DNA of 43,749 nucleotides from a virus, in IMG/VR virus record IMGVR_UViG_3300040801_004504, positions 1 to 43,749 of that record; one strand, written 5' to 3'. This document shows positions 6,429 to 24,230 of the stretch, piece after piece. Each line of letters begins with the position of its first letter. Position 1 is the first letter of the stretch. Made by a program: the position numbers and the translations under genes. Below the pieces are notes generated by a model. It had not been told where the DNA came from. It saw only the letters and a program-made list of their open reading frames with translations, and did not search any database.

Positions 6429-7226
6429 TCAGTTCATAATTAAACGGAACCCATTGGGATAGCCTCCCCCTATATTTGGGATAATGATGTTTAGCGTGCC
6501 ACTTATGAACTCTTGCTTAAAAATATTACCCGTGAGATGGTTATCGATAACTTGATGGTTTGACAAGTCGTACATCTGCATTTGGTAGTACATAATAGTG
6601 CTATCAGATGGGTTGTGTATTCCCAATTTGAAATCGCCTAAGCCATCTGATGTACTGGAATTCCCCTCAACTACCAGCTTGAAAATGGGAGAGCTAGAAG
6701 ATGTGGACACATTATATCCTTCAGACCGATTCCCAGTCAGTAATATTCCGCCTTCAGTCAACATCCACCCACACACTGTAAGCCCATCTGTAGTAGCGCA
6801 ACTTGAAAATAGCCCGGCACTAGTCCTAGGAGAAGATAAGGCATAAGGAACATCTCTTAATATGGACCTGCCTAGTTTCTGAAAGTCGTTGCCACCATCG
6901 GTATCTATCTCGGTAGATAGTGAGTACCTGAAAGATGTGAAGTCGAGATTATCAGCGGTACCGTCCTGTGGCTCCCCTTCAGTCAAAACTAGGTTAACCA
7001 GACCAAACTGATTAGTTCTGGTTTCAAAAACCTCAACGTAGTGGGTGTCCGTAGAATCATCTACGGGGGAGTAGGAGAATCTAAAGGATACATTCGATTC
7101 TGTGATAGGTGTGCCCTCTGCATTCCTCACGACGGCCTGATAGCTAATTCCTTGAGCCACCAAGTTTAGTGACAATGACAGTACTAACGCGACTGGTAGA
7201 ACGAGACGTAAAAATATTGTTTTCAT
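6429..7226 (-). CDS. secreted accessory protein sharing the fibre C-terminal 'PNIGG' domain
   Basis: A 265-aa protein. Residues 1-24 form a Sec signal peptide (LVLPVALVLSLSLNLVAQ, cleavage near VA|QG). Residues about 25-135 match an exported domain common in Bacteroidota ('QGISYQAVVRNAEGTPI ... TNQFGLVNLVL ... GGNDFQKLGRSILRDVPYAL'), often found at the start of surface or tail-fibre-like proteins. The last 95 residues (IIIPNIGGGYPNGFRLIMN) are homologous to the C-termini of two late-operon proteins at 22444-23517 and 23547-24230. It is cotranscribed with the T9SS cargo gene (15-nt gap). Likely displayed outside the cell; function unknown. Confidence 0.72.
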   Translation of the reverse strand: MKTIFLRLVLPVALVLSLSLNLVAQGISYQAVVRNAEGTPITESNVSFRFSYSPVDDSTDTHYVEVFETRTNQFGLVNLVLTEGEPQDGTADNLDFTSFRYSLSTEIDTDGGNDFQKLGRSILRDVPYALSSPRTSAGLFSSCATTDGLTVCGWMLTEGGILLTGNRSEGYNVSTSSSSPIFKLVVEGNSSTSDGLGDFKLGIHNPSDSTIMYYQMQMYDLSNHQVIDNHLTGNIFKQEFISGTLNIIIPNIGGGYPNGFRLIMN

Positions 7227-7241
7227 ACTAGAGTTTCGAAG

Positions 7242-7763
7242 TTATTTAGCTTTGATTATGGTGTGAGTAGAGTTATAAATTGTGCCGGATAGATTGCGAG
7301 TTTGAATTATGTAGATACCCGATGCGTGAGCAGATAAATCGATCTCGATATTGGACTGACCGTTTACAATCACATCGTTGAGAACAACAGATCCGAGGCT
7401 GTTAAGGACTCTTATGGTTAGCGATTGATCTTGACTATAGGGAGTGATGTAGACCCTTCCTGATGTCGGGTTAGGATAAATTCGTATGAGATAGTCTACG
7501 TTTATTGAGTTCGAGGAAGTCAAGGTGCGATCCACCTGGTGAAATCCCTGCGTGAGGACCACATCATTGTTGATGTAAGTTTCTGTAACTGACTCGCCTA
7601 TCGTATAACTGATGAAGATGGTTTCATTTTCGACGAACCCTCCATCAACAGCTAGGACTACCGGACCCAAGGTCTGACAGGCAATATTGTGGCATGCTAT
7701 CGAAAGGATCAGCACAAAATTGTACTTCGCTACCCACCTAGTTATCATCATGATATTTTGCAT
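7242..7763 (-). CDS. T9SS type A sorting-domain protein (secreted)
   Basis: About 173 aa from MQNIMMITRW; the ATGs at 7751 and 7748 are alternatives. A hydrophobic signal (FVLILSIACHNIACQ) is followed by VLAVDGGFVENETIFISYTI, GESVTETY and VLTQGFHQ, the core of a widespread short Bacteroidota secreted family. The C-terminus (about 92-173: IRIYPNPTSGRVYI ... LNSLGSVVLNDVIVNGQ ... IEIDLSAHASGIYII) is a type A sorting domain. The T9SS exports such proteins across the outer membrane, so this phage gene uses a host-specific machine. It is AT-rich and the first gene of the pair with 6429-7226. Confidence 0.82.
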   Translation of the reverse strand: MQNIMMITRWVAKYNFVLILSIACHNIACQTLGPVVLAVDGGFVENETIFISYTIGESVTETYINNDVVLTQGFHQVDRTLTSSNSINVDYLIRIYPNPTSGRVYITPYSQDQSLTIRVLNSLGSVVLNDVIVNGQSNIEIDLSAHASGIYIIQTRNLSGTIYNSTHTIIKAK

Positions 7764-7787
7764 ACACCCACGTCTACTTTGTTTAGA

Positions 7788-7854
7788 TGCAAGGTAGCAG
7801 TATGTACCAAGAATAAAGAAAACTAGTTTGCATAGTTTGCATGTTTGCAAACTT
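7788..7854 (+). repeat. regulatory module, right copy
   Basis: TGCAAGGTAG at 7788-7797 and TTTGCAAACTT at 7844-7854 repeat the left copy (5287-5345) in order and orientation. Two more TTTGCAT words lie at 7827-7833 and 7836-7842, giving three near-tandem half-sites spaced 8-9 bp. They overlap the -33 and spacer of the rightward promoter, the expected place for a repressor. Confidence 0.6.
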
Positions 7855-7867
7855 ATGCCTATCTTTG
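7836..7867 (+). promoter_or_regulatory. main rightward early promoter
   Basis: TTTG (7836-7839), a 20-bp spacer and TATCTTTG (7860-7867) match the Bacteroidota sigma-factor consensus exactly. Transcription should start near 7874, leaving a short leader before the ATG at 7913. The TTTGCA half-sites overlap it, implying repression in the lysogen. Confidence 0.72.
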
Positions 7868-7912
7868 CTCACGAACCCGCCGCCCGACAAGCGGCACAAA
7901 CGACCCTGAGTC

Positions 7913-8506
7913 ATGAGCAAATCACCCAATTCCAACGTAGCCAAGCCTACTAATCCCCCCACCGAGACGGCACCTGCGTCCGCGCCCCAGCAGATGAGCG
8001 ACCAGTCGTCGGCCATCATGGTCGATGCCAGCGGCAAGCCCGTCGTCGAGGTCTCCCAGTTCCTTCAGCTGCTCAACCAGGGTGGCGAGATGGCGGACTT
8101 CGACATCATGGACCTGCCCGACCTGAGCGATGCCCCGGTGGTACCCCTTTCTCTGGTGGAGGACTACTGGAGCCCCGAGAGTAAGGGCGAGGTACGTAAG
8201 CTGGCCTTCCTGGGCGTCAAGACCGTAGAGATTCCGAGCATGTCGGAAGAGAACCGCGGCGAGCTCGTCGAGCGCACCTACGTGGAGTTCGTGGAACGGC
8301 AGGCCGACGGTACCGGCAAGATGGTTACCAGTGCGGCCGCCCGACTGGTGGGATTCTTTACCGATCGCAACGTCCCCCGCGGCACCTTCTGGCAGATCAC
8401 TTACAACGGCAAGGTCCAGAACAAGACCAACGCCTACAAGAGCGACTCGTTCCTGATCAACATGATCGTGGTACCGAGCCGTGCAAAGTCCGCCCAACGT
8501 GGGTAG
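7913..8506 (+). CDS. rightward-operon early protein, unknown
   Basis: A 197-aa protein. A disordered Pro/Ser/Thr-rich N-terminus (1-45) is followed by a compact domain: DYWSPESKGEVRKLAFLGVK, VERTYVEFVERQ, AARLVGFFTDRNVPRGTFWQ and ITYNGKVQNKTNAYKSDSF. The beta-rich pattern and position as first gene suggest a nucleic-acid-binding (OB-like) protein in replication or recombination, but this is by eye only. Confidence 0.65.
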   Translation: MSKSPNSNVAKPTNPPTETAPASAPQQMSDQSSAIMVDASGKPVVEVSQFLQLLNQGGEMADFDIMDLPDLSDAPVVPLSLVEDYWSPESKGEVRKLAFLGVKTVEIPSMSEENRGELVERTYVEFVERQADGTGKMVTSAAARLVGFFTDRNVPRGTFWQITYNGKVQNKTNAYKSDSFLINMIVVPSRAKSAQRG

Positions 8507-8528
8507 TCAGGTAGAAGCGACGGCAGCA

Positions 8529-9287
8529 ATGGATTTCGATCTGTTCCTGCCTAACCTGTATGAGGTGGGTGAGGTGGTACCCGTCGACCTGACGGCCCTA
8601 CCCCACCCCCGCGCGCTGCGCTCCTTCCGTACCGAGACGGAGCTGGCGCTGGACTACCTCCGGCGTACTTGCGATCGCTCCCACCGCTGCTGCGTGTGTG
8701 CCAGTCACCGGCAGGACGCTACCGATGAGGAACGGTTTGAGTTCAGTCAGCTGCCGCTGGTTCCCCTGGAAGATCAGATCGTACTGGTGCACGTAGTAAC
8801 CCACACGCCGGCCTACTACATACCGGGTGACCCGCCGCTGCGGCGCCCCTACCGACATACCGTCACCGCCCGGCGCCGCCGGTACCTTGAAGAGATGTTG
8901 GACGGTTGCGATGAGGGTACGAAGGCTACGCCCTTCTTCGCCACCGCCCGGCCGGCGTGTGCCTTCACCTTCGACTGGGCGGCGCTGGCCGCACTGATCC
9001 AGCTGGCCGAGGGCGGACCATCCGACATCGATGTACTCGATGAGTACCTCCACCTCGAGGGTCAACCCTACCGGGCCACGGCCATTGACCGCAATGATTT
9101 GCGCGACTACCTGGCCGGTGATGAGCGGCGGGTCTACCGTCGTGCGGCGGATGCGGCCATCGGCCACGAGAAGCTACGCAAGCTAGGGGACCTACGCGAT
9201 GCCCTGGCGGCCGGAAAGTTTGATGACCTGCGCAGCGAGCTGAGCCGCCTACCAGCGGACGCCTTTGCCTACCAGGCGCCGATCTAA
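8529..9287 (+). CDS. hypothetical protein with Cys/His cluster
   Basis: About 252 aa from MDFDLFLPNLYEV. The GTG at 8481, which would overlap the previous gene, is less likely than this ATG. A Cys/His cluster (CDRSHRCCVCASH, about 47-59) could bind metal or an Fe-S cluster. The middle contains FFATARPACAFTFDWAALAA; the C-terminus is helical. A terminator follows, so 7913-9287 forms a two-gene unit. No family recognised. Confidence 0.6.
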   Translation: MDFDLFLPNLYEVGEVVPVDLTALPHPRALRSFRTETELALDYLRRTCDRSHRCCVCASHRQDATDEERFEFSQLPLVPLEDQIVLVHVVTHTPAYYIPGDPPLRRPYRHTVTARRRRYLEEMLDGCDEGTKATPFFATARPACAFTFDWAALAALIQLAEGGPSDIDVLDEYLHLEGQPYRATAIDRNDLRDYLAGDERRVYRRAADAAIGHEKLRKLGDLRDALAAGKFDDLRSELSRLPADAFAYQAPI

Positions 9288-9346
9288 CCTACCCGATTTA
9301 CGCCGGGAAGAATCACTTAGTCTACTGGGTTCATAGTGTCTTTGAT

Positions 9347-9378
9347 GGGGTTCACCCCTAGCGGTGGACCCCCTTTTC
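9347..9378 (+). terminator. intrinsic terminator after the first two rightward genes
   Basis: GGGGTTCACC (9347-9356) pairs with GGTGGACCCC (9363-9372) over 10 bp with one G-T pair and a six-base loop, followed by CTTTTC. It lies 60 nt after the stop of 8529-9287. Partial readthrough is expected, since the next genes run the same way. Confidence 0.72.
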
Positions 9379-9390
9379 ATCCCTCAGATC

Positions 9391-9468
9391 ATGTTTGAAT
9401 TACTCATCACTCTGGTGCTCATTTGGTGTCTAAAGGCCGACGATCAGCCCGCAAATCCTACCTCATGA
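9391..9468 (+). CDS. very small membrane peptide
   Basis: 25 codons, ATG to TGA: MFELLITLVLIWCLKADDQP and four more residues. Residues 2-14 form a hydrophobic segment. It begins 13 nt after the terminator and its stop is linked by ATGA to a 7-codon frame that runs into the GTG of the next gene, so it may serve as a translated leader. Weak evidence. Confidence 0.35.
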   Translation: MFELLITLVLIWCLKADDQPANPTS

Positions 9469-9484
9469 TTGAATATATTATCCT

Positions 9485-10240
9485 GTGAGTGTTCCGACCA
9501 TCAAGGAACTATACCGTATGCTGGAGGGTCTGGCCCGCCACCGCCGCTTCATGGAGGTCTACGACGATCTACTAACCATACAGCTATGTTGTCTGGCGAT
9601 GCAAACGGAGGAGGAACTGTACCTCGAAACGATCGCTCGCTATGACCAGCAGGTCGTCAGAGAAGAGTGGCCTGCGGTGATTGGCTATCTATGGCGGTTG
9701 TACCAATATCACCTCGAACGGGGGGATGGTTGGTACGATCCGCTCGGTATGATCTTCGAGGAATATACCAGCCGCCGCGGTGCCTCCCAGATGGGGCAGT
9801 TCTTTACGCCACCCGGCGTATGCGATCTGATGGCGTCGATCGCTGCTACCTCCCATAGCGGGACGTGGGTGAATGACCCCAGCGCCGGCTCGGGCCGCAA
9901 CTTACTGGCTCACATCGGTCTCGACCCGGCCCATCGTCTACAGTGTCGCTACCTCGGTCAGGACCTCGACCGGATGTGCGTGAAGATGACGGCGCTTAAC
10001 CTGGCGATGCACGGAATGAGTGGCTACTCTATTCACTGCAACACCCTCACCCTGGAGGTTTTCGGGGGATGGCGCGTGTATCTGGCCGAAACCGGATTGG
10101 GCGTCCGCAAACTGAGCGTCGAGCAGGCAAGGGCTATGGTAGTTCCTTGCACCCCCGCCACTGATCCTGACACTGCCAATGAGATCGCACCTACCCCCAG
10201 CGGGGAAGCGGCAGCGGAGCTTCAGTTACAGCTATTCTAA
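9485..10240 (+). CDS. N6-adenine methyltransferase-like protein lacking motif IV
   Basis: A 251-aa protein with a GTG start. A helical N-terminus precedes the type I/gamma-class core: GQFFTPPGVCDLM (104-116, motif X-like), NDPSAGSGRNLL (130-141, motif I, SAM binding) and YLGQDLDRMCVKMTALNLAM (156-175, motif II). After VFGGWRVYL the catalytic (N/D)PP(Y/F) motif expected around residues 200-220 is absent and an acidic, Pro-rich tail follows. SAM binding is plausible, catalysis is not. It may be a decoy or accessory for a host or phage methylase, or a degenerate enzyme. Confidence 0.75.
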   Translation: MSVPTIKELYRMLEGLARHRRFMEVYDDLLTIQLCCLAMQTEEELYLETIARYDQQVVREEWPAVIGYLWRLYQYHLERGDGWYDPLGMIFEEYTSRRGASQMGQFFTPPGVCDLMASIAATSHSGTWVNDPSAGSGRNLLAHIGLDPAHRLQCRYLGQDLDRMCVKMTALNLAMHGMSGYSIHCNTLTLEVFGGWRVYLAETGLGVRKLSVEQARAMVVPCTPATDPDTANEIAPTPSGEAAAELQLQLF

Positions 10241-10254
10241 ACTATATCACACCC

Positions 10255-10353
10255 ATGCGAAAATCTTCACACTACGATTTATTCACTGCCACGCTGCTTG
10301 CTACCCTGCTAATTGCGGGTTACTTGATCATGTGCTCACCGGTGGTACTGTAA
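10255..10353 (+). CDS. small one-TM protein
   Basis: 32 aa from ATG to TAA. A polar start (MRKSSHYDLF) leads into a TM helix (TATLLATLLIAGYLIMCSP). It starts 15 nt after the methyltransferase-like gene and ends 25 nt before the zinc-ribbon-like gene, so it fits the operon spacing. Function unknown. Confidence 0.45.
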   Translation: MRKSSHYDLFTATLLATLLIAGYLIMCSPVVL

Positions 10354-10377
10354 AGTTCTACTCGAAATAAAACTACC

Positions 10378-10659
10378 GTGCGAGATCTATTTGGAAACGA
10401 CAGCCCCTACTTAACGCCCCGCGGCTACAATCCTAATACCCGGAATAAGGATGGGTCCTGGAAGGTCAACCCTATGACGATCACCCACGGTACTACCGAG
10501 GGGCAGCGGTGCAAACACTGCGCTCACTTTGTTATCAAATTGTACAGCAAACGGTACTTCAAATGTGCGCTACGGGGGAACGTGGATAAAGCATCCCCGC
10601 AGAGTGATCATCGGGCCAACTGGGTGGCATGTGGGAAGTTCGATAGGCACACCGAATGA
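10378..10659 (+). CDS. small zinc-ribbon-like phage protein
   Basis: A 93-aa protein with a GTG start. Residues about 43-88 carry C-x2-C (CKHCAHFV), a single Cys (YFKCALRG), His (SDHR) and a final Cys (WVACGKF). The arrangement 'CxxCxHxV...YFKC...D.R..W.ACGKF' is one I associate with widespread small phage proteins of unknown role. Metal binding is likely; a DNA- or protein-binding role cannot be decided. Confidence 0.65.
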   Translation: MRDLFGNDSPYLTPRGYNPNTRNKDGSWKVNPMTITHGTTEGQRCKHCAHFVIKLYSKRYFKCALRGNVDKASPQSDHRANWVACGKFDRHTE

Positions 10660-10735
10660 CCGTAAATTACCTGCTTTGCACTCCAATTAAATGTATGCAA
10701 ATCGAAACAAATAAAGGTTAGAAGGTGTTATATAT

Positions 10736-11146
10736 ATGAACGGTGCAACGGCACAATTCATATCTTTTCATCAAGATCCTGCCGCCTACAGTAACAGGCA
10801 CTTTGACATGTTGTACTCACCAATTACGGTGTTCCGCTTAATTGCGGAACTTTCCCCCGCTGGCTTCACCCGCCGAATTGCTGATCTCGAAACGGTTACC
10901 ACTGGCTACAGTGTGGCCTACAGGGAAACGCAAGACGGCTACGGCGATGCCGGTCTACGGGCTGCGATTGATCACGCCACCCAGCACGCCGGCTTTGTCG
11001 GAGGGTGGTTGGATACCCAGACGGGCCGCTACTACTTCGATAGTGTGCGCATTTTCGATAACGAAGCGGAGGCCATCCGCTTCGGACGGGAGAACGGCCA
11101 GCTGGCTATCTGGAACTTTGCAGACATGGCTGAAATTCGGCTTTAG
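10736..11146 (+). CDS. hypothetical protein of a phage/plasmid accessory type
   Basis: A 136-aa protein. Features are GFTRRIADLETVTTGYSVAY, GFVGGWLDTQTGRYYFDSVR and AEAIRFGRENGQLAIWNFAD. The last block recalls a family of small, acidic mobile-element proteins in which a 'GGWxD...YxD...A...A...N.Q.AIWD' pattern is typical, but I cannot name it. A single TGCAAA word lies 42 nt upstream. It ends just before a very stable hairpin. Confidence 0.55.
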   Translation: MNGATAQFISFHQDPAAYSNRHFDMLYSPITVFRLIAELSPAGFTRRIADLETVTTGYSVAYRETQDGYGDAGLRAAIDHATQHAGFVGGWLDTQTGRYYFDSVRIFDNEAEAIRFGRENGQLAIWNFADMAEIRL

Positions 11147-11152
11147 ATTGAC

Positions 11153-11180
11153 ACCCGGGGGCTTCGGTCCCCGGGTTATC
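11153..11180 (+). terminator. stable UUCG hairpin, probable terminator
   Basis: ACCCGGGG (11153-11160) pairs with CCCCGGGT (11169-11176). The loop adds a G-T pair and a C(TTCG)G tetraloop, giving a 10-bp stem capped by the classic stable UUCG loop. TATCTT follows instead of a strong T-run. It lies 7 nt after the stop of 10736-11146. It could terminate, or protect the 3' end of the upstream mRNA. Confidence 0.6.
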
Positions 11181-11208
11181 TTAGTACAACTCTACAACTA
11201 CCTACAGT

Positions 11209-11700
11209 ATGACTACTCACTTCCCCCCAGACATTGCGGAGCGCCTACGGGCTGCACGTGCCAACTTCGGCCGCGCCGGGATTCGGCTCGTGATCGACCC
11301 ACCCGACGAAAATGACCGAGTCCGCGTGTTTATTCATCAACCTGACAGCCCCCAACTTGCGCGAGCGCTGACAGATACCGAACTGCACGAACGTGCCGTT
11401 GACGTGTTCGCCGGCACTGACTACCGTCCAGAAATTACAGTCACCCCCTCGGCTAAGTATGCTATTGATCGTACCGATTCGGAAGGCCTCTGCGTCCGTA
11501 GGCTGGTTGAGCCCTACCACGTGGCGCGTATTGCCCGTGGTGAAGGCACACCTGCCCTTAAGCTCAGGAAGCATCCTGATGCCTACCACCTGGTGGCTGT
11601 GACCGATATGAACCCGGGAACCTTGAAAAACCTGGCTAAGACCGCTACATCTTTGATTATTCGGAACCAGCTGTACAACCTCCTCAGTAATGCCCGGTAA
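11209..11700 (+). CDS. hypothetical rightward-operon protein
   Basis: A 163-aa soluble protein. A helical start (DIAERLRAARANFGRAGIRL) is followed by an alpha/beta domain (VRVFIHQPDSPQLARALTDT), then CVRRLVEPYHVARIARGEG and a C-terminal helix (GTLKNLAKTATSLIIRNQL). No recognised family or catalytic motif. It overlaps the next gene by 11 nt. Confidence 0.55.
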   Translation: MTTHFPPDIAERLRAARANFGRAGIRLVIDPPDENDRVRVFIHQPDSPQLARALTDTELHERAVDVFAGTDYRPEITVTPSAKYAIDRTDSEGLCVRRLVEPYHVARIARGEGTPALKLRKHPDAYHLVAVTDMNPGTLKNLAKTATSLIIRNQLYNLLSNAR

Positions 11701-11908
11701 GACCCTCACGTCGATTCAGGCGCTCGCCTTTGTTGAGCACCCGGCCATTCAGTTCACCGAGGTCGCCCGACGCTTCTACGCCGATGGTAAGCCGTACGCT
11801 CGCCAGCGGCTACGACGGCGACTGTATCAAGTAGCCAGCATCAGTGAAGACACTCTGGTACGACTGACCGAGGTTCGCGATCGGTTGGTCAGGGAGATTG
11901 CGGGATAA
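11690..11908 (+). CDS. small basic helical protein
   Basis: 72 aa. FTEVARRFYADGKPYARQRL followed by RRRLYQVASISEDTLVRLTE reads as a helix, a basic turn and two helices, which could be an atypical DNA-binding domain. The start overlaps the end of 11209-11700 by 11 nt, indicating coupled translation. Function unknown. Confidence 0.5.
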   Translation: MPGKTLTSIQALAFVEHPAIQFTEVARRFYADGKPYARQRLRRRLYQVASISEDTLVRLTEVRDRLVREIAG

Positions 11909-11985
11909 ACTGTACAACTAATTCATTAACCAGCCCCCTGTGGCAACTGACGTGGCTGCTGTGTTGGGCGCATATTTGTTTTATC

Positions 11986-12207
11986 ATGAAATACTATATA
12001 GGGAAAACCGGCCCCCACATTCTACTAGCTGGAGGTCGTCTTATTCAAGACGGGATCGGTAACTCTGTCTCAGAAAGTGAGTTTTGGTCAAGAATGAAAG
12101 AAGTTCTTGGGGACAAGTTCAATGAGAAGGAAGAAGCGATACGTCATCAACTATCGCTGTCCGATAACTACATTCAATTTGGTGATCTCAAGTTTTCTGT
12201 CTTGTAG
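11986..12207 (+). CDS. hypothetical small protein
   Basis: 73 aa (MKYYIGKTGPHILLAGGRLI ... LSDNYIQFGDLKFSVL), AT-richer than its upstream neighbours. The 77-nt gap before it holds no clear promoter, though an A/T-rich TATTTGTTTTATC precedes the ATG. No domain recognised; acidic/basic mix, soluble. Confidence 0.45.
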   Translation: MKYYIGKTGPHILLAGGRLIQDGIGNSVSESEFWSRMKEVLGDKFNEKEEAIRHQLSLSDNYIQFGDLKFSVL

Positions 12208-12302
12208 CTGCGCCTAATGTGAGTGACGGTGCAGGCCGACGTAGGAGGCTTGACACTGGCACTTTATTGGGCGATGGTCTTCTTCTTTATAATCAAGTAA
12301 AA

Positions 12303-13166
12303 ATGAGTCTTACACCAACCAGACCAGTATGTCGGTACTATGGGGGGAAGTGGAAATTGGCCCATTGGGTAATTGGCCATTTCCCTAGACACCGCGCATA
12401 CGTTGAAGCCTTCGGCGGTGCCGGGTCTGTGCTGATGAAGAAGCGGCAATCTATCGTAGAGGTATACAATGATCTGAGTGATGAAATGGTCAATCTTTTT
12501 CGAGTGCTCAGAAACCGAGAAATGTCTGCGGAGCTTCGCAGATTACTCGACCTGACCCCCTGGTCTCGATCTGAATGGCTGAGCTGCTACGAACCTTCAG
12601 GCGACATCGTAGAGCAAGCCAGGCGAACGGTGGTGCTGTGCGCTCAGGGTCACAACCCATCCAAAGCCCTCAACCGGCGTAGTAACGGATGGCGGTCGTC
12701 TTCCTCTGGCAATCATCGATTACCGCAAGACTTTCAGGCATACACTGCGGCCCTTACCCTCATTACCGATAGGCTGAAGGGAGTGCTCATCGAAAACCGG
12801 CCAGCCGAAAAGGTGTGCCGACAACATGATCGGATTTCAACCTTGCACTACCTAGACCCTCCCTACCCGGGCGCAACGAGATCTACGAACAACGGCAACT
12901 ATTATCAACACGAACTACGCCGGATGGAACAGCACGAAGAGTTGGCGGGGTGGGCTAACGACCTAAGGGGCATGGTCGTAGTCTCTGGCTACGATTGTGA
13001 CGAATACGACCAGTGGTTTGGGGGTAGGGGTTGGAAGCGCGTCGCTACCACTGCTACCACTGGAGCGGCTGGGGGTGGATCTACCGGCAAATCGACTATT
13101 GCTACCGAAGTACTCTGGCTCAACCCTTTGGCTGCATCGATGCAAAAGCAGTTGGGGTTGTTCTGA
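12303..13166 (+). CDS. dam: D12-class (Dam-type) DNA adenine N6-methyltransferase
   Basis: 287 aa from the ATG at 12303, preferred over a GTG at 12219 because the conserved N-terminal motif begins right after it. Motifs: CRYYGGKWKLA (10-20, SAM site/motif X), YVEAFGGAGSVLMKK (33-47, motif I), EVYNDLSDEMVNLFRVLR (53-70) and LHYLDPPYP (181-189, motif IV). It transfers methyl from SAM to adenine N6. No restriction nuclease is nearby, so it is an orphan phage methylase, probably protecting phage DNA or marking replication. Last gene of the rightward operon; it converges on leftward genes at a palindrome. Confidence 0.88.
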   Translation: MSLTPTRPVCRYYGGKWKLAHWVIGHFPRHRAYVEAFGGAGSVLMKKRQSIVEVYNDLSDEMVNLFRVLRNREMSAELRRLLDLTPWSRSEWLSCYEPSGDIVEQARRTVVLCAQGHNPSKALNRRSNGWRSSSSGNHRLPQDFQAYTAALTLITDRLKGVLIENRPAEKVCRQHDRISTLHYLDPPYPGATRSTNNGNYYQHELRRMEQHEELAGWANDLRGMVVVSGYDCDEYDQWFGGRGWKRVATTATTGAAGGGSTGKSTIATEVLWLNPLAASMQKQLGLF

Positions 13167-13563: not shown

Positions 13564-14220
13564 CTACACCAAGGGGCTTAAATTGGGATCTTCCGACGTA
13601 ACCGGTTCTCCCCATATACATACAAATTTGGCCAGGCCTTGGCTTTCCAGTACTGCGTGAGGGTCATCGGGGGCAATTTCAATGACGTCACCAGGCCCCA
13701 GGATGAGGAACCGACGGTCGTTCTGCGGACCTACCTCCACGGTAACCTCGCCCAAAACTCCAATAAGGACTTCCTTCCACGGGTGGTGGTGGGTATTGAA
13801 GCGAGATCCAGGCAGCATACGGACCCCAAGAAGCTTACCCGGCATGTCCGGCCAAAAGCCCCGGATGAAGGCCTTCACAACACGCTCATCATCCGGAAAC
13901 TCCATCCACGTACCGTAGGGTAGATTGACCTTCCAAATGTCCGATTCCAGTTCAGCGATAGTACTCTTTTCGATTAGCATTTCGACGAACTCCCGGTTGT
14001 CGATGTTCGCATACTCTGCTACCCGACGCGACAGGCGTACCTGTGCATGATCTGTTTCCATGATCTCTTCCCGAGCACTGACCAGTTTATCGCGCAAACG
14101 TCGCTTCTGGTCATAAAATATTACCGTCATTGTGGCCAGGACCACACAGAGAAACGACAATATCACGAAGGCCGTCAGCGACATCAGGGTACGGATATAA
14201 ATGACCAGGGGCCGGCTCAC
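13564..14220 (-). CDS. membrane-anchored cupin-domain protein
   Basis: 218 aa with a GTG start (an ATG 36 nt later is possible). A TM helix at about 12-34 precedes a basic stretch and short coiled coil. A cupin fold follows at about 128-207: metal-site motif 1 GSRFNTHHHPWKEVLIGVLG (138-157; ligands H144, H146, E150) and motif 2 GPGDVIEIAPDDPHAV (175-190; H188). The HxHxxxE...H pattern is intact, so metal binding is likely. Cupins bind or convert small molecules; the substrate here is unknown. Late-operon position next to a holin-like gene is unusual. Confidence 0.72.
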   Translation of the reverse strand: MSRPLVIYIRTLMSLTAFVILSFLCVVLATMTVIFYDQKRRLRDKLVSAREEIMETDHAQVRLSRRVAEYANIDNREFVEMLIEKSTIAELESDIWKVNLPYGTWMEFPDDERVVKAFIRGFWPDMPGKLLGVRMLPGSRFNTHHHPWKEVLIGVLGEVTVEVGPQNDRRFLILGPGDVIEIAPDDPHAVLESQGLAKFVCIWGEPVTSEDPNLSPLV

Positions 14221-14706: not shown

Positions 14707-15324
14707 TTAGGGGTTATCGATGACAGCCTGGACGTCGGCCTTCGTCACGGTTCCGTTCTTACCGGTACCGGTGACCTTTGAGATGTCGACGCCGTGCTGG
14801 CCAGCCAGCTTAGCTGCGGCATCACTGGCTTCGGTATCCTCAGCGGATGTGCTGACCTGAGCAATACCGACACCCTGCGCTCCGGCAACATTCACCCGGC
14901 TGATCGGATTATCGGCGCCGTCAACTACGATGGCCGACAGTGTCCCGGAGCCGGTGTGCTCGACGTCAATCGAGGTGGCGGTACCACTGTTCTGAGTGAC
15001 CGATACGATGGAGTCGACCTCCTGGCGATCGATCAGTTCGTGGATCGCATCCTGAATGCGCTGCGGACTGGAAGCAGCCGGAAGCGGATATTCGATACGT
15101 TCCTGTGTCAGCGAGTCTTCCCGACTGAAGGGAATGAAGCTCACCACGCCGTCCTTACCGGCATACTTGATGCCCTGGATAGTGGACTTGCCACTAAGGG
15201 CTACCGTGCCGGTATCGGTTCCGGCAGATCCCGGCTCATCGCGGTCGACGAGGCGGGTAGCGTTTTCGGAATTAGCGGCAGGGTTGGAGCGAAACTTACC
15301 GGCGAGATTGAGATCGTAGGCCAT
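14707..15324 (-). CDS. virion-region protein with C-terminal E3-binding (PSBD)-like domain
   Basis: 205 aa. A beta-rich body (GTVALSGKSTIQGIKYAG ... VVSFIPFSRED ... GTATSIDVEHTGSGTLSAIV) ends in a 35-residue domain at about 168-202: ASDAAAKLAGQHGVDISKVT, then GTGKNGTVTKADVQAVI. That is the peripheral subunit-binding domain pattern of dihydrolipoamide acyltransferases (LAxxxGxDxxxVxGTGxxGxxxxxDV). The same module ends 24217-25068. The body could be a decoration or fibre protein. It overlaps the preceding stop by one base (TGATG). Confidence 0.6.
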   Translation of the reverse strand: MAYDLNLAGKFRSNPAANSENATRLVDRDEPGSAGTDTGTVALSGKSTIQGIKYAGKDGVVSFIPFSREDSLTQERIEYPLPAASSPQRIQDAIHELIDRQEVDSIVSVTQNSGTATSIDVEHTGSGTLSAIVVDGADNPISRVNVAGAQGVGIAQVSTSAEDTEASDAAAKLAGQHGVDISKVTGTGKNGTVTKADVQAVIDNP

Positions 15325-16335: not shown

Positions 16336-17725
16336 CAGTCTCTGGTTGTTCGTCGCCCTGATCAGGCGTTTGTAAGTCCGACCCTCCGAGTTTCTGGGCA
16401 GGAGCTATCGGTTTAAGGTCCTTGATCAGTTCGGATACCGCATCCGGGAATTCGATGCCGAGATCGCGGTAGGGTGCCGGGACGTTCTCGTCTTCGAAAA
16501 TATTTGACAGTACGCCATTCCACAGATTTTCGAAGTAGTCCTGTTTGGGAGCAATCACTTCGCGGTTTTTCTCTACGTAGGTATCGTACAGCAGATTGCC
16601 CCCCAAAGAGGCATTAGCCTGTCGTAGGCTGGTAAGCGTAAGGTCCCAACTGAGCGATGCGGCTACAAAACTAGAAGCGTGTTGCTCCTGGAACTGCAGG
16701 TATTTCGTATCGTGGTTGACTTCGAAGTCAATGGCAGAGGGTGGATTGGTCCCGAAGGGGTGTTCAACGACTGCCACTTCGGCCTGGCCGGGCCGGGGCC
16801 CGATCGTATCGCCGGGGGCAGCCATAACCGTCACCAGCCGCTTAATTTCAAAGGCGTCACGCTGGAATGAGTCGACCTCATTGCCGTCTTCGTCGACCTC
16901 ACCACCGATAGCATTCGGATCCTGTCCCTCGATGGCAATTATCTTCTTCGCCAGTATGGCGGTAGCCGCTACCTTGCTCACGTGGTTGCTGGTCTGAAAG
17001 TCGGTGTAGTAGGCCGGCATGAAGCGTATGACGTTGGAACGTCCGTAGTAGCTGCCCTCATCATCGTCAACGCTTTCACGCAGGTGGACGACGGTACGCT
17101 CCGTCTGCTGGTCTCCCTCGTCCTGCATCCAGCGAAGGGGTTCACCTATGTCGCGGGTGACACGGTACAGTTTCGGTTTAGCCCCGGCAATGGTGCCGCT
17201 CTGCGTTAGGTGACGCGAGTGTAGCAGGAACCATTCGCCCGGATCGTAACTCTTCGTGTAGATGCAGTGCAGGTAGTGGAGTACTTCGAAACGGTAGGCG
17301 TAGGAATCTCCCACCCGTGATCGGGTAATTGCCAGGTAGGCATTGCCGGATTGTGCCAGGTGATCATCCATCGTTCCGGATAGCTTGATCATTCGCGTGA
17401 GGCTGAGATTAAACCCCTTAATTATCTCGGTGAACTTCACTCGGGTAGCGTAGTCTACTTCAGATCGTTTGGAGGCCAGCCCGGGAACGGCACGGCCACA
17501 TACCCGTACGCGGTGGCCGAAGGTCAGCTCCCTGCGAACCTTCATAACGGTGCCGTAGGTCGGTGAGAGTCCACACAGATCACGCAATAGCGCCAGGAAA
17601 GCATGAGAACCGTGCTGACTATCCCCGTAGTAAGGGATGCACCGATGCTTTCCAATCCAGGTAGTTACGGCTGCTTCGTCTACCTGCTCGTAGGGGATGG
17701 GGTTGCGGAACTGGAAAATGCTCAT
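16325..17725 (-). CDS. phage portal protein
   Basis: 466 aa from MSIFQFRNPIPYEQ; the ATG at 17725 is supported by a 4-nt ATGA overlap with the subtilase gene. The portal-like features are a helical N-terminus, the strand-rich stretch SGNAYLAITRSRVGDSYAYR, then YDPGEWFLLHSRHL, TVVHLRESVDDDEGSYYGRS, a stem-type region with VNHDTKYLQFQEQHASSFVA, and an acidic Pro-rich tail. Portals form the dodecameric DNA gate at the capsid vertex. Length fits the family. It is far from terminase and capsid genes, which is unusual. Confidence 0.75.
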   Translation of the reverse strand: MSIFQFRNPIPYEQVDEAAVTTWIGKHRCIPYYGDSQHGSHAFLALLRDLCGLSPTYGTVMKVRRELTFGHRVRVCGRAVPGLASKRSEVDYATRVKFTEIIKGFNLSLTRMIKLSGTMDDHLAQSGNAYLAITRSRVGDSYAYRFEVLHYLHCIYTKSYDPGEWFLLHSRHLTQSGTIAGAKPKLYRVTRDIGEPLRWMQDEGDQQTERTVVHLRESVDDDEGSYYGRSNVIRFMPAYYTDFQTSNHVSKVAATAILAKKIIAIEGQDPNAIGGEVDEDGNEVDSFQRDAFEIKRLVTVMAAPGDTIGPRPGQAEVAVVEHPFGTNPPSAIDFEVNHDTKYLQFQEQHASSFVAASLSWDLTLTSLRQANASLGGNLLYDTYVEKNREVIAPKQDYFENLWNGVLSNIFEDENVPAPYRDLGIEFPDAVSELIKDLKPIAPAQKLGGSDLQTPDQGDEQPETDGT

Positions 17726-18825
17726 CCCGATGCGTTGGTATTTCCGTAGAACAGTACGCGGAGATCTAGCGACCCGTCGGGACGCTTGCGCCCCATCAAC
17801 TTGACCGGTGCCCATTCGTCTTCGGGTGAGGGAGTTCCCTTCGTCTCATCGTCGTCCGTCACTGGCTCATTTCCTTCTGGTACATTAAGGTATCGTTCCA
17901 GCCGCGGTACTCCGAGGCCACTATCGTCATCCCGCCCCGGCTGGAGTATGTCGGTAGCGTGTTCGGCCAGGAAGCCGGCCAACTTATCCTGACTGTCGAT
18001 GTCCGACCGTAGCGAAAGTATCAGTGCGGCAACACCGGCCACCTGAGGGCATGCCATCGACGTTCCGCTCAGCTTGGCGTACCCACCATTTTTGTGGGTT
18101 GAGTAGATGGCGCCACCCGGGGCGGCAAGGTCAATCTCTCGACCACCGGCCGAGAAACTTGACCGACGGTCTCCCGGTTGGTCGGTGCTGGCTACGGTGA
18201 TGACCGGAGCGTAGTTACCCGGGGGGCCTACGGTGCTGCTGCCCCCGGAAAAGCCGCTGTTACCAGCGGCTACGATGATGAAACAGCCGCGGCCGATGGC
18301 GTAGTCGATGGCAGATTTTAGGTGAGAGGGAGTAGCCTGCCCCGCCGGGCCGCCAAGGCTGAGGGATAGGATGCGGCGCTTACCTTTCAGCCTACCCGCA
18401 TCTTCCAGGTCTGCGACGTAGCGAATCATTTGTGAGATCCACATGTAGGAACCGCCGCCGCTATCGTTGAGCACCTTGCAGGCTACTAGGCCAGCGGCCG
18501 GAGCAATGCCCATCACGCCGACTTCGTTGTCTACCCCCGCGACAATTCCGGCACAGTGCGTACCGTGGCCGTGATGGTCTCGATCGGGGGAGTTGGTCAG
18601 GTTTTTATTGAACTCTTGCAGATTGTTGACGGCAAGGTCAGGATGGTCGGCGAATGTGCCGGCGGTGTCGAGCACGAATACGACCGCATTTTCGCCCCGA
18701 GTGAACTCATGAGCCGCCGCCGCCTGCAGGTAGACGTTCCCCCAGTCAACCACCTGACCGGCAGATAGGGCGATGGGGTCGACGTGGTATTCGGGTAGCT
18801 GAATGTCGTAGCGTGGATCGTTCAT
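17722..18825 (-). CDS. subtilisin-like (S8) serine protease without signal peptide
   Basis: 367 aa from MNDPRYDIQLPEYH; the ATG at 18825 overlaps the amidase stop by 4 nt. The S8 triad is complete: Asp53 (VVFVLDTAG), His87 (HHGHGTHCAG) and Ser256 (LSGTSMACP), with the oxyanion Asn189 (VAAGNSG). An acidic linker and a short 'APVKLMGRKRPDGSLDL' tail follow (about 320-367). No signal peptide or long propeptide is seen, so it should act in the cytoplasm or virion, or leave at lysis. An S49 prohead protease is encoded elsewhere, so its target is unclear. Confidence 0.9.
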   Translation of the reverse strand: MNDPRYDIQLPEYHVDPIALSAGQVVDWGNVYLQAAAAHEFTRGENAVVFVLDTAGTFADHPDLAVNNLQEFNKNLTNSPDRDHHGHGTHCAGIVAGVDNEVGVMGIAPAAGLVACKVLNDSGGGSYMWISQMIRYVADLEDAGRLKGKRRILSLSLGGPAGQATPSHLKSAIDYAIGRGCFIIVAAGNSGFSGGSSTVGPPGNYAPVITVASTDQPGDRRSSFSAGGREIDLAAPGGAIYSTHKNGGYAKLSGTSMACPQVAGVAALILSLRSDIDSQDKLAGFLAEHATDILQPGRDDDSGLGVPRLERYLNVPEGNEPVTDDDETKGTPSPEDEWAPVKLMGRKRPDGSLDLRVLFYGNTNASG

Positions 18826-20276
18826 CGGCGGTAGAAGTGTTTGGCAATCATCCATCCGCAACCGCGGTTGGTGTTCTTAGATGGAGGTAGTGGCTCGGTA
18901 TTAGAATCTTCGTTCTCAATCGGTTCGGGCACCTCAGTAGCTGGATGTTCGGGAACGTCACCTTCCTCATTGGCCACATCCCGGTCGGTCCTGGCCTGTC
19001 GGATCATGTCCAGCAATCGCTCTTTGGGGAAGTAGTGGCCAGGACAGGTCCATCCGGGCCGCAGTTCATTGTGGAAAGTCACCTCACAGTTGCGACCGAG
19101 CAGATCATCATGGCGCAGAACTCCGGCCACGGCTGCTAGCAACGAGTCCTCCGTAGGCGGGTGTTGCTCGAAGTTGCCTAGCAGGCAGTGCCCCACACTA
19201 AGGCCGTTGTAACCTCCACAGTGGTAACTGACCGTTTCGGGACGTTGCGTGAGGCAGGTCTGGCCGGATGGGTCGGTGACTTCGTGGTAGGCAATACCCG
19301 GCCAGTCCTGACCGGTCGGCAGACCATTGGAGGCTACACCCTTGGGAGCACTGTGAAAGGCGGCGATACTACGGACGGTATCGTAGTCGGACCCAGACAT
19401 GTGGAAGACATACTTCACCTTCTCACTGATTTCTACGATCCCGTATCGCTTGGAGGGGTGGCTGGGTAGCTGGTCAATCAAATCGATCGGCCGGGGTAGT
19501 TCACCCCCCGAATACGGCCGTACCATAGCCACAGACATGGCGAGTTGCCCCTCAAATTTGGCGTAGAAACCCGGCGGCGGCGGGTTGTCCCAGTCAATTC
19601 CCGTCGCTTCGTAGTGCGCCAGAAGGGCACGATACTGCTCGTAGGTAATGGGCTCATCCAGCTCCCCCACTTCCGTCCAGGACTGGTAGCGCTTGATCAC
19701 CTTGGTTCGCTCCTTATCCTTGCGTTCAGCACGGCGTCGAGCTTTTCCCTCCTTAGTCGGTTTGAAAATTTTGATCAGGCCCGGCAGGAAGCTGATCACT
19801 TCCCATATTCCCACCAATGCCGCCGGTGTAGTCAGGGTCCGGACCTTTTGGTCGCTGGCGGCATTCTTACCCCATAGAGTGAATACTAGGTGAAAGGCAG
19901 CGGCCTGAAGTAGATAGAGTGCGACCCACACCAACAGCCATACCCAGAAGGGAGCGGCTGGGAAGATGAGGCTTAGCAGTATAACGATGGCCGTACGTAC
20001 GGCGGCGTACTGTACTTCCTGCAGCAGGTGCCATCCGTCCGTGAGGAATACCAGGGCGGTAGTCGACAGCGGGAAACGCTCTTCGAGGGGACGGATGAGC
20101 TTGCCATCTGGTCCGCTACGGTATTTGTTGCGCCAACTTTCGGAAGGTTTCCAGAAATGATCCTTGAGGCCGGCAGTCCACCCCCGTCCATAGTGGAATT
20201 GCAGCTTGTCGGCGGCGCCCTTGGCTGCGTGTGCTATTACCAATAGGACGACGGCGATAGTTATATACAATACCAT
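18822..20276 (-). CDS. membrane-anchored N-acetylmuramoyl-L-alanine amidase (endolysin fusion)
   Basis: 484 aa. Residues 1-170 form a membrane domain: one TM at 1-15, then LSTTALVFLTDGWHLLQEVQ (70-89) and hydrophobic stretches at about 92-136, a pattern seen in stand-alone Bacteroidota phage membrane proteins. A basic linker (175-200) leads to an amidase_2/PGRP domain (about 285-430) with Zn-ligand candidates H292 (FHMSG), H402 (FHNEL) and C411 (TCPGH) and the YHEVTDPSG strand. It cuts the amide between MurNAc and the peptide stem. An acidic Pro-rich tail follows. It lies just after a holin candidate, as a lysis cassette. Confidence 0.82.
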   Translation of the reverse strand: MVLYITIAVVLLVIAHAAKGAADKLQFHYGRGWTAGLKDHFWKPSESWRNKYRSGPDGKLIRPLEERFPLSTTALVFLTDGWHLLQEVQYAAVRTAIVILLSLIFPAAPFWVWLLVWVALYLLQAAAFHLVFTLWGKNAASDQKVRTLTTPAALVGIWEVISFLPGLIKIFKPTKEGKARRRAERKDKERTKVIKRYQSWTEVGELDEPITYEQYRALLAHYEATGIDWDNPPPPGFYAKFEGQLAMSVAMVRPYSGGELPRPIDLIDQLPSHPSKRYGIVEISEKVKYVFHMSGSDYDTVRSIAAFHSAPKGVASNGLPTGQDWPGIAYHEVTDPSGQTCLTQRPETVSYHCGGYNGLSVGHCLLGNFEQHPPTEDSLLAAVAGVLRHDDLLGRNCEVTFHNELRPGWTCPGHYFPKERLLDMIRQARTDRDVANEEGDVPEHPATEVPEPIENEDSNTEPLPPSKNTNRGCGWMIAKHFYRR

Positions 20277-20489: not shown

Positions 20490-22424
20490 TTAGTTAGCCG
20501 TCTTCAGGGCCGACACTGATATGTTCGGGCCGGCAAAGTTGCCAGCACCAAAGTAGTAGCTTCCGCCTACAATGGCCGATGTGGTAGCGGCGTCATTTGA
20601 CTCCAACGCTGGCCGCCCCCCGCTCGAAAGCCGGCGGCTTAATAGGGAGTTCACCAACGTAATCGGCCGGTTAGTTGTGATGACTGGGTATAGGCCCGAG
20701 GTAGTCGAAAGCGTACCCTGGATTACCGTTCGACCGGTACCCGTATCCGGTGCGCTGGAAGCGCTGGATATGACTGGTGCGGCGTCCGTTCGTAGAGTGC
20801 CGGCGATGTAAGTGTTGCCACTATTGGTGCCGCTCTGGTTCATCTTGATTACGCTCTGCTCACGACTGTAGATATTTCCCGAGATGCTGACCTCTCCCCC
20901 CTGGGGCTGATCCAGCAGAATGAACCCGTCATCGATCACGCAACTGCGGCATTCAATATCTACGTAGGAACCGGTCAAGTCTCCCGAAAGTCTCGCCATT
21001 CGCGGATTATCACCAAACGTATTGCTGCTGTAGACGACGTCGGAATAGTCGACGTCCCCCTGAAATGCAAGCGCACTACCCCTTGGGGGTACAGCTATCT
21101 CATCGATTTGGATCTGGACGGTGCTATTCGTCACCCCCGCGCCCCGCTCAATAGTGAATAAGCGCGAGAACTGGCCGCGTTTGCTGCCATAGTCCTGTGT
21201 CGGGAAATTGCTGATTCCAGTCTTCACTCGAGCGACTATAAATTGTACCTGGCTGTTGTCCAGTATATGGCGATTAACCTGCAGCCAAAGCGCAGGGTGT
21301 ACGTTATTCTCGGCTATCTCCAGTTCTCTTACTACGAAGCGAAAGTTTTGGTTTTGCTGCGGCCGGTCTCTCATAGTTTCGAAGAATCCGGTACTTAGAA
21401 TAGCACCCTCAGCTTCAATAACCCGATCTACTACTCCCGAAACATTCACGCCGGCGGGGCTTGATCCGTTCACTGCGCAGAGCACGTTGGAGCGGCTCCG
21501 CGGATTGAAGGAACCGACTTCAACGTTGATATTTATTTCGGGTATTGCGTCCCCGTTCGCCAGCGTCGGGTCTTGGTCATCCACGTAGGCGTATACCGAA
21601 CCGGAATTTGTGAGCCGCAAATTGCCCGTCATTGTGACATCGTATGTTCCGTCGGCGTTAGTAGGCAGGTCAATAGTGTTGTACGCCTGTACCTCGAAGA
21701 GCTTCACTTGACCGGTACCGGTACTGGTAATTGCCACATTGTCGAAACTGAAGGTTACGTCATCCGGTGGGTTGACAATCGTACCACCGAGGTCACCCTC
21801 CAGGCTGTACTCGCTATTGTAGGTGTGGACTACGTCGCCGGGTAGGAAGCCGCCGGCCTCGATCGCTGCACGTAAGTCTTGCCAAGGACGGGTCGGGTCG
21901 CCTACCGCTGCCGTGGCGTTGTTACCTTGGACCCGATTCACGTACCGAATGCGGCCGTAGTCGACCGGTTCTCCGCCAGCGGCCACCTCCGCGTTGTGCG
22001 TCAAGATTGCGCTCATCATCGCCTGGCTGATCGATTGGCTATTGGCGGGCGGCACCGGTATGGTGGGCTTCGTCGGGTCGTAGGCGTAGACCACCCCGAT
22101 CCCGATAGGCTCGGTATTCGTGGTGCCGATCCCCTGCAGCGTCAGTTCTGCGTCCCCGAAAGTGGTGGCTCCTACGGTCTCCACCGAGTACTGTTGCCGC
22201 GTGTTGGTCAGCACCCGCATTCCGGCGGTGATTTGGCTGGCGAGGTACCCCAGGCCGCTCTGATCGGCTTGCATCGTCATCGTGACTTGGTAAGTATTGC
22301 CGCTCGGGTTCGTAATGTCCGAAAAGCTACCGACCATGTAGTAGCGCCCCTGGATTTGTCCGCATGCGGGCACCGCCATCGCTAGAAGGACCGCCAGTAG
22401 AAAGTGCGTAATGTTGAATTTCAT
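20490..22424 (-). CDS. tailspike-like beta-helix protein with Sec signal peptide
   Basis: 644 aa. Residues 1-22 are a signal peptide (FLLAVLLAMAVPACGQ; VPAC could be a poor lipobox). Residues about 24-150 are clearly homologous to the same region of 22444-23517 (shared LTMQADQ/MTMQADQ, GYLAxQ, GVVYxYD, PPANxQxISQA). From about 160 the sequence is a strand-rich repeat with RIRYVNRVQGNNATAAVGDP, then RPWQDLRAAIEAGGFLPGDV, the start of a pectin-lyase-like beta-helix. This is a likely receptor-binding or depolymerase spike. A Sec signal on such a protein is unexpected. Confidence 0.65.
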   Translation of the reverse strand: MKFNITHFLLAVLLAMAVPACGQIQGRYYMVGSFSDITNPSGNTYQVTMTMQADQSGLGYLASQITAGMRVLTNTRQQYSVETVGATTFGDAELTLQGIGTTNTEPIGIGVVYAYDPTKPTIPVPPANSQSISQAMMSAILTHNAEVAAGGEPVDYGRIRYVNRVQGNNATAAVGDPTRPWQDLRAAIEAGGFLPGDVVHTYNSEYSLEGDLGGTIVNPPDDVTFSFDNVAITSTGTGQVKLFEVQAYNTIDLPTNADGTYDVTMTGNLRLTNSGSVYAYVDDQDPTLANGDAIPEININVEVGSFNPRSRSNVLCAVNGSSPAGVNVSGVVDRVIEAEGAILSTGFFETMRDRPQQNQNFRFVVRELEIAENNVHPALWLQVNRHILDNSQVQFIVARVKTGISNFPTQDYGSKRGQFSRLFTIERGAGVTNSTVQIQIDEIAVPPRGSALAFQGDVDYSDVVYSSNTFGDNPRMARLSGDLTGSYVDIECRSCVIDDGFILLDQPQGGEVSISGNIYSREQSVIKMNQSGTNSGNTYIAGTLRTDAAPVISSASSAPDTGTGRTVIQGTLSTTSGLYPVITTNRPITLVNSLLSRRLSSGGRPALESNDAATTSAIVGGSYYFGAGNFAGPNISVSALKTAN

Positions 22425-22443
22425 TGTATTGATTTTCGGAATA

Positions 22444-23517
22444 TTAGTTCCAGATGGCTCGGTAATAATTAGGGTAGTTGCCGCCTATATTCGGTATCTC
22501 GAACCGATTTTCGAGGTTCCTCTGTAGGTCTTGTTTTGGCACATTGCCCGTCAGGTGAACGTCTACCTTTTGATTGTTGCTTTGGTCGTACATCTGGTAG
22601 CTGTAGTCGTCTGCCAGCCTGCCTGTGAACCGGAAAACGGCCGTACCGGAGGCGTTGGCACCATCGCTGTTTCCAACGGCCGCAATCTTCAGCGCCGTAC
22701 AGCTACAGTCTATTTGGTAGCCAGTAGTAGCGTCCCCGCTGAACGTCGGCTCTTCTTCGCCGAAATGCCACACTGTAATAGACATATCCGTTCCGTAGCT
22801 GTTGCCGGTTCGTTTAATTCTGCTGCCTACCGTTACGGTCTCGTCGCTGTTTGTCAGCCCGAGCTCTCCCGTTGCCGGGTTGTAGGTCGGATCTTGATAT
22901 TCGTCGGTCGGGTCGTCGTCGCCACTCGGGAAGATGGTCGGCTTCCCGACTAGTTCTGCCCAAGTAGGCAAGGGTCGGGTGTAAGTAATGGGATTGCCTG
23001 CACTTCCGTCACCGGTCACCGGCGCTTGCGTCTCTACCGTGGAGCTTCCGCCGGCAAGTTCCTGCGTAGCCACCTCGAAGTTGTGGATGAGCATTCGCGC
23101 CAGCAGCGCCTGGCTAATGCCCTGTGCGTTGGCCGGCAGCGGCGGTATCATCCGCGTCGTGCCGTCGTATTCGTAGACTACCCCTACGCCCGAGGGTCCG
23201 AGGGTCGTGCCTTCGATCTCGAGCAGGGTCACCGTTGCGCTTGAGAAGTTGGACGACGGCACTGCCGTGATTTCGTACTCGCGCCCGGTGGCCGTGAGCA
23301 AGCGCCAACCGACCTGCACCTGATTGGCGAGGTAGCCCGCGCCGAGTTGATCGGCCTGCATCGTCAGCGTCGCCTGGTGGGTGGTAGCTGTCGGGCTACT
23401 TACGTCCGTGATCGTGGCCGCCATGCTGAAGCGTGTCTCGAGCTGTGCGCTGGCATCGGTAGCGAAAGCGAGGCATGCCAGTAGCAGGAAGGCCCCGTAA
23501 AGGTTGCTAAGTTTCAT
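22444..23517 (-). CDS. fibre-like protein with signal peptide and C-terminal PNIGG domain
   Basis: 357 aa. The signal peptide is 1-25 (AFLLLACLAFATDASAQ, AxA site). Residues about 26-150 share a domain with the N-terminus of 20490-22424. A linker (VETQAPVTGDGSAGNPITYT) and a short beta repeat lead to the C-terminal domain (about 262-357, ending FEIPNIGGNYPNYYRAIWN) shared with 23547-24230 and with the secreted accessory protein at 6429-7226. Being in the fibre block it may be virion-associated, but the signal peptide argues for export. Confidence 0.65.
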   Translation of the reverse strand: MKLSNLYGAFLLLACLAFATDASAQLETRFSMAATITDVSSPTATTHQATLTMQADQLGAGYLANQVQVGWRLLTATGREYEITAVPSSNFSSATVTLLEIEGTTLGPSGVGVVYEYDGTTRMIPPLPANAQGISQALLARMLIHNFEVATQELAGGSSTVETQAPVTGDGSAGNPITYTRPLPTWAELVGKPTIFPSGDDDPTDEYQDPTYNPATGELGLTNSDETVTVGSRIKRTGNSYGTDMSITVWHFGEEEPTFSGDATTGYQIDCSCTALKIAAVGNSDGANASGTAVFRFTGRLADDYSYQMYDQSNNQKVDVHLTGNVPKQDLQRNLENRFEIPNIGGNYPNYYRAIWN

Positions 23518-23546
23518 TCCGATAGGTTGTTTGGCCTGGCCATTGA

Positions 23547-24230
23547 TTAGCGCAGGAGTTGATCAAATCCATTGGGGTAGCTACCGCCAATGTTGGGGGT
23601 TTCCAGAGTGGTTACGTTGCCAGCCACGGCCTGCCCGAGGGAATGCCCGCGGGCGACCTTATCGGCTTCCTGTTTCTGGCTACCGTCGTAGATCTGGTGG
23701 GTGAACTTCCGGTCGTAGCCGTTGGCGCTGTTGTCGACGATGAACAACAGCGTCCCGTCGGCCTGTGCCGTGTTGCTGTCGCCGGTAAGGTCGATGTGAT
23801 CGATGTGACTTCCCGCCGGCATGGTCAGGCGGTAGCCGTTGGCACTGTCGCCGTCAACATTTGGTTCCGTGGCTCCGTGGTAGTGTACTACTACCGCCAA
23901 ACCGTCGATCGTTTCAGAGTATACGTTATAGGCTGACCCCCCACCGCCTCCGCCCGTTCCCTGGGTTTGCCAGTTGGTGTTGCCTAGGTGGGCATCGACA
24001 GCGGCAACGATTTCGGCGGGGGTTTGGTCTTGCGTTGCCTGCTGCTCAATGCTGCCCAGCTTACTTGCAGCTGCATCGGTGAAAGCGTTCGTATTCGAGT
24101 TGGACTCGTAGGCCGACTTCACCGCGGCCGGGTTGAGCGGGGGCAGGGGAATGATCTCGTCAATCTCGATCGCGGCCGCTCGAACTTCCTCGGTGCCGCT
24201 GACGGTCGTATCGTTCTTACTTTTCATCAT
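23547..24230 (-). CDS. tail-fibre-like protein with C-terminal PNIGG domain
   Basis: 227 aa, no signal peptide. Residues about 30-85 (PAAVKSAYESNSNTNAFTDA, then AASKLGSIEQQATQDQTPAE) are the short helical repeat typical of phage fibre or baseplate-attached proteins ('FTDA..KL..IE..AT.DQT..EI'). A Gly-rich hinge (92-97) follows. The C-terminal 95 residues (TPNIGGSYPNGFDQLLR) match two other proteins in this element. Probably a receptor-binding tip or virion attachment protein. It overlaps the upstream gene by 14 nt. Confidence 0.68.
   Translation of the reverse strand: MMKSKNDTTVSGTEEVRAAAIEIDEIIPLPPLNPAAVKSAYESNSNTNAFTDAAASKLGSIEQQATQDQTPAEIVAAVDAHLGNTNWQTQGTGGGGGGSAYNVYSETIDGLAVVVHYHGATEPNVDGDSANGYRLTMPAGSHIDHIDLTGDSNTAQADGTLLFIVDNSANGYDRKFTHQIYDGSQKQEADKVARGHSLGQAVAGNVTTLETPNIGGSYPNGFDQLLR

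Follow-up and report, generated by a model that had tools for sequence, protein, structure and literature searches.

Superinfection-exclusion surface proteins such as Llp of T5, Cor of phi80 and SieA of P22 make the receptor or the entry path unavailable, and to our knowledge no exclusion protein of this kind reuses the fibre tip of its own phage. Phage-encoded adhesins on the lysogen surface are represented by PblA and PblB of Streptococcus mitis phage SM1, choline-binding proteins that depend on the phage holin and lysin to reach the surface (PMC2920869), and bacterial surface fibres by the mosaic adhesive trimer (MAT) fibres of Bdellovibrio bacteriovorus, trimers displayed on the cell surface whose tips are swapped (Caulton 2024, PMC10769870; NCBIfam NF053851). 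The window analysed here spans a complete IMG/VR virus record (IMGVR_UViG_3300040801_004504; 43,749 bases), and its minus strand encodes a 265-residue exported fibre protein, P0001 (6429..7226), whose sequence identifies it as a chimera of a MAT-like Bacteroidota secreted-fibre base and the phage's own kind of tip. We read P0001, with a probability of roughly 0.4, as a lysogenic-conversion surface fibre whose exported tip would bind the phage's ligand in cis, mask the receptor and lower adsorption.

The tip is a C-terminal domain common to three proteins, all encoded on the minus strand: P0001 (tip about 6432-6794), P0002 (22444..23517, tip about 22447-22788) and P0003 (23547..24230, tip about 23550-23912). 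The initial annotation had placed open reading frames at these positions and proposed that two fibre-region proteins share this domain with an exported accessory protein 16 kb away, and the proposal holds up. By BLASTP the C-termini of P0001 and P0002 align at E=3e-17, those of P0001 and P0003 at 1e-11 and those of P0002 and P0003 at 4e-12; the best of 5,000 shuffles reached 24.6 bits, against 65.9 and 48.9 bits (two to almost three times as much) for the real sequences. A profile built solely from the two tips of L004, an unrelated 94-kb virus (IMGVR_UViG_3300040801_001133), recovers all three proteins at E=1e-20 to 7e-9 when searched with Z=1e6 against the open reading frames of the window, none of which matches besides these three. 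The C-terminal position first described for the domain stands, while its length is nearer 120 residues than the ~95 first given. Invariant in the five known copies are G..S, D, Q and G, plus the C-terminal PNIGGxYPN; the tips of P0001 and P0002 are ~35% identical.

Relatives of the tip were found only on two adjacent fibre genes of L004; beyond these two viruses it was not found in annotated phages, viral contigs or genome contigs. A domain ubiquitous in host proteins, a possibility raised along with the initial annotation, is ruled out, there being no true match in about 810 Bacteroidota genomes, where two marginal matches (L093, L094) proved spurious on inspection. The predicted structure is all-beta with 10 strands (pLDDT 82, pTM 0.79), and a Foldseek search of this model against PDB and BFVD returned nothing at E<=0.001; the best hits (PDB, 0.014, TM ~0.4; viral, 0.0038, TM 0.51, an uncharacterised phage protein) were not used as evidence. 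Because the tip is found elsewhere solely in fibre genes, and because the gene order around its fibre carriers recurs in L004, the sequences identify it as a rare phage fibre-tip domain, which presumably binds a receptor.

These fibre carriers form a module with a third gene. P0003 (227 aa) has no signal peptide and begins with a tail-fibre motif that is widespread among the fibres of marine phages (residues 34-82 match the tail-fibre proteins of many phages, E down to 3e-9), as the initial annotation had surmised from its N-terminus. P0002 (357 aa) has a signal peptide (about 23443-23517) followed by an N-terminal domain (about 23068-23442) that it has in common with P0005 (20490..22424, minus strand; 644 aa), which is tip-less and has a putative signal peptide. 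The signal peptide already noted on P0002 looks real, in that no alternative start codon precedes the conserved domain; the structure model of full-length P0002 was too poor to use (pLDDT 59). The three genes recur in L004 in unchanged order, with matching N-terminal domains and with tips on the counterparts of P0002 and P0003: P0005 is 46% identical to its counterpart over 618 residues, and P0002 and P0003 are related to theirs across both halves. L004 differs from the present phage in its low GC content (35% over 15.7 kb), in lacking signal peptides and in lacking a gene for the N-terminal MAT base (MAT-N) anywhere in its 94 kb record; its relatives of P0002 and P0005 start exactly where the signal peptides end. 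A cupin-domain protein is encoded at 13564-14220 of the window, and in L004 the region downstream of the fibre module likewise encodes a cupin-like protein (12405-12833). The module was absent from other viral contigs and from 395 genomes in a pattern scan that is insensitive to distant relatives, and the annotated phage collection yielded no relatives of P0001, P0002, P0005 or P0007 (the neighbour of P0001, described below).

Judged from its sequence, P0005 probably carries its signal peptide, and it may instead start at an internal ATG or be a lipoprotein. Passage through the Sec pathway would take fibre proteins out of their usual cytoplasmic assembly, so P0002 may act at the cell surface too, or may join virions only after lysis.

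The N-terminal half of P0001 has a different ancestry. A signal peptide (7155-7226, recognised from sequence and hydropathy) is directly followed by a MAT-N-like base domain (about 6831-7154, residues 25-132), and over its first 132 residues P0001 is similar to a hypothetical protein of an Aureispira plasmid (E=7e-15). Against the NCBIfam model NF053851 (Bdello_MAT_N) P0001 scores 24 bits (E=2.7e-5, residues 14-91), short of the curated cut-off of 60 bits; the same model matches all 63 of 63 aligned N-terminal segments of the family (best 1e-16) and finds matches, all likewise under 60 bits, in 77 of 296 Bacteroidota genomes versus 0 of 14 controls. The family accounts for 249 stretches in the genome contigs. 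Across the tails of 49 relatives, 20 Pfam families are represented (among them collagen, S74, Fib_succ_major, Lcl_C and Kelch; S74 on 6 of the 49), which indicates that tips are interchangeable in this family. With 133 residues against a median of 377, the tail of P0001 is longer than those of only 2 of 79 complete relatives, which makes P0001 nearly shaftless and would place its tip close to the membrane, where we infer that the protein is retained as a trimer.

Directly upstream of P0001 lies P0007 (7242..7763, minus strand; likely start ATG 7763), which encodes a small exported protein with a type A sorting domain of the type IX secretion system (T9SS; Por_Secre_tail, E=4.7e-12; TIGR04183, E=8.6e-9). 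P0007 is homologous to the partner protein on Aureispira anguillae plasmid pAUEa (pair WP_264793647/WP_264793648), where the P0001 relative lies directly downstream of the partner, in the same order and orientation as here. That plasmid pair (L009:5443-7833; Saprospiraceae) sits beside a recombinase gene. At 40 of 95 relative loci, picked by the base domain alone, a P0007-like T9SS-sorted gene lies directly upstream of the base-domain gene. The Bacteroidota pairs differ from P0001 in their tails (collagen, S74, Fib_succ_major, Kelch and others), and none of those tested carries the tip described here. With MAT fibres P0001 has in common the signal peptide, an N-terminal base homologous by profile to their beta-rich one and membership in a set of interchangeable C-terminal tips, some of them phage-like; it departs from them in the sub-threshold profile score, the lack of a long shaft, its location in a phage genome next to the gene of a T9SS-sorted protein, and a tip common to the encoding phage's own fibres. 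The MAT-like surface-fibre base of the exported carrier and its T9SS partner had escaped the initial annotation, as had the position between repeats.

That position is a low-GC island (5100..7860) with 42-47% GC, versus 56-64% in most flanking windows, and P0001, P0007 and the orphan gene P0006 (5577..6284, minus strand) are all low in gene-level GC and GC3. At each border of the island stands a 24-nt imperfect inverted repeat built of AGTTTGCA half-sites. The left cluster (5301..5344, minus strand) contains AGTTTGCA and one-mismatch forms and precedes a leftward replication operon; the right cluster (7825..7867, plus strand) overlaps TTTG-N20-TATCTTTG, a promoter of the Bacteroidota type for the rightward operon from 7913. 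The promoter type described for Bacteroidota is TAnnTTTG (PMC10309648). Exact AGTTTGCA sites number 7 in the window against 0.82 expected, all of them within 5324-7853, and the single further exact copy of TATCTTTG stands just upstream of P0006, adjoining another half-site. The border repeats were considered as transposon ends; operators fit better, given that the half-site also occurs inside the island and overlaps the promoter. We regard the AGTTTGCA sites as candidate operators of divergent early promoters enclosing a lysogeny region, and P0006 as a candidate regulator, perhaps the cognate repressor. An interval between divergent early promoters is the usual place of lysogeny genes, and the position of P0007-P0001 between such operator-like repeats would make their expression in the lysogen likely.

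Elsewhere in the record, profile matches identify a replication initiator, an integrase and a regulator of the MerR type; a terminase is recognised by similarity, an S49-type capsid protease is also encoded, and a long translation is judged to be a probable tape measure protein. Among annotated phages the terminase is nearest to those of Bacteroides and related phages (33-41% identity), and no relatives of it were found among viral contigs. This gene content makes a temperate phage infecting Bacteroidota the most likely identity of the record.

Under the reading we favour, P0001 would be co-produced with T9SS-sorted P0007 from the prophage's lysogeny region, and then exported. The MAT-N-like base, with hardly any shaft between it and the phage tip, would hold that tip beside the cell's own outer membrane, where it would meet in cis the same ligand as the virion fibres; the receptor would then be occupied or masked, with less adsorption of related phages or less re-adsorption of progeny. 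The near absence of a shaft fits such occupancy in cis. The outcome would resemble, by analogy, that of Llp, Cor and SieA. Superinfection exclusion or mimicry by P0001, raised as a possibility in the initial annotation, is plausible. Whether the whole assembly (the phage's own receptor-binding tip on the secreted-fibre base of its host's phylum, with a T9SS partner, in the immunity region) is a dedicated self-exclusion fibre displayed by the lysogen is a narrower proposition that we hold to be doubtful.

Several observations weigh against receptor masking by P0001. A T9SS sorting domain is missing from P0001 itself, and the presumed lysogeny region contains no recognised repressor. As the fold of the tip has no confident match in PDB or BFVD, binding cannot be deduced from it; the presumed function of the tip is suggested by homology. 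At ~35% identity to the tip of P0002, the tip of P0001 may also differ in specificity. Lastly, no second phage was found with the tip on both a fibre and an exported MAT-N protein. A pairing of fibre and secreted carriers in other prophages, raised at the outset as something to look for, was not found: both carriers in L004 are fibre genes and a MAT-like carrier is lacking, and a MAT-N-like gene occurs in just one further viral contig (L095), where its tail is SusD-like. In L095 the next gene encodes a probably exported fn3-domain protein, and the contig also has an AAA/TniB-like ATPase, a phage lysozyme and a probable transposase (judged from sequence and position); the two genes (9938-12252) are apparently cargo of a transposable prophage. 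Phages thus do acquire MAT-N-like genes; only in the present phage is one joined to a phage fibre tip.

The same chimeric surface fibre could instead benefit the lysogen in trans, by attaching it to ligand-bearing prey, particles or cells nearby. This would accord with the role of MAT fibres on the surface of the Bdellovibrio predator (PMC10769870), with the precedent of PblA and PblB on lysogens of S. mitis (PMC2920869), which unlike P0001 are not fused to a bacterial secreted-fibre base, and with the T9SS partner and tip mosaicism of the family. A nearly shaftless protein is ill-suited to reaching out, however, and its tip is no general lectin but one of the phage's own type; we consider adhesion in trans unlikely, though worth keeping in view.

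Less probable still, the shared domain might be a non-binding C-terminal cap for trimerisation or folding that P0001 reuses in order to trimerise. Every copy runs up to the stop codon, and the domain is compact and all-beta and occupies the C-terminal place of the S74 chaperone domains seen on some of the related tails. Pfam, however, detects no Peptidase_S74 match in P0001, P0002 or P0003, two adjoining fibre proteins each carry a divergent copy, and the non-S74 tips of MAT fibres studied to date fold independently, one of them binding a glycan (PMC10769870).

We give little credence to the low-GC island being a host passenger or an assembly join, with the resemblance of the tips reflecting an old transfer that has no present function in the phage. 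The sharp change in GC, border repeats that could be the ends of an inserted element and a tip identity of merely 35% would suit it. Opposed to it are the occurrence of the same half-site at both borders and inside the island, phage genes flanking on both sides, and the presence of so rare a tip in a record that also encodes its fibre relatives. Least credible of all is that P0001 is exported in the course of lytic growth and attaches to virions, as a component or as decoration, once the cell has lysed, as P0002 and P0005 might: the signal peptides on those two members of the fibre module do suggest that fibre export is a habit of this phage, but P0001 lies 16 kb away and outside the late operon, and its MAT-like bacterial base, T9SS partner and place in the low-GC, presumed lysogeny region favour display on the lysogen surface.

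Other genes of the record deserve brief mention. The product of 24217-25068, beside a putative capsid gene, has a C-terminal E3-binding (peripheral subunit-binding) domain (PF02817, E=3.8e-10), and the C-terminus of 14707-15324 looks similar to it; both ends are possible docking domains of virion proteins. A subtilase (17722-18861; PF00082, E=5.7e-48) overlaps an amidase gene on one side and a probable portal gene on the other, and an antitoxin-like gene with a SocA/Panacea domain lies inside the late region on the plus strand (36327-36950).

P0001 joins three subjects usually treated apart: phage adsorption tips, the secreted mosaic fibres of Bacteroidota with their T9SS partner, and lysogenic conversion. 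The pair of MAT-N-like and T9SS-sorted genes forms a large and nearly unstudied group. If the favoured reading is right, phages would borrow a host fibre base to display their own tips, a simple route to prophage-driven surface change and exclusion, and such fusions would offer a source for the phage-like tips found on bacterial mosaic fibres.

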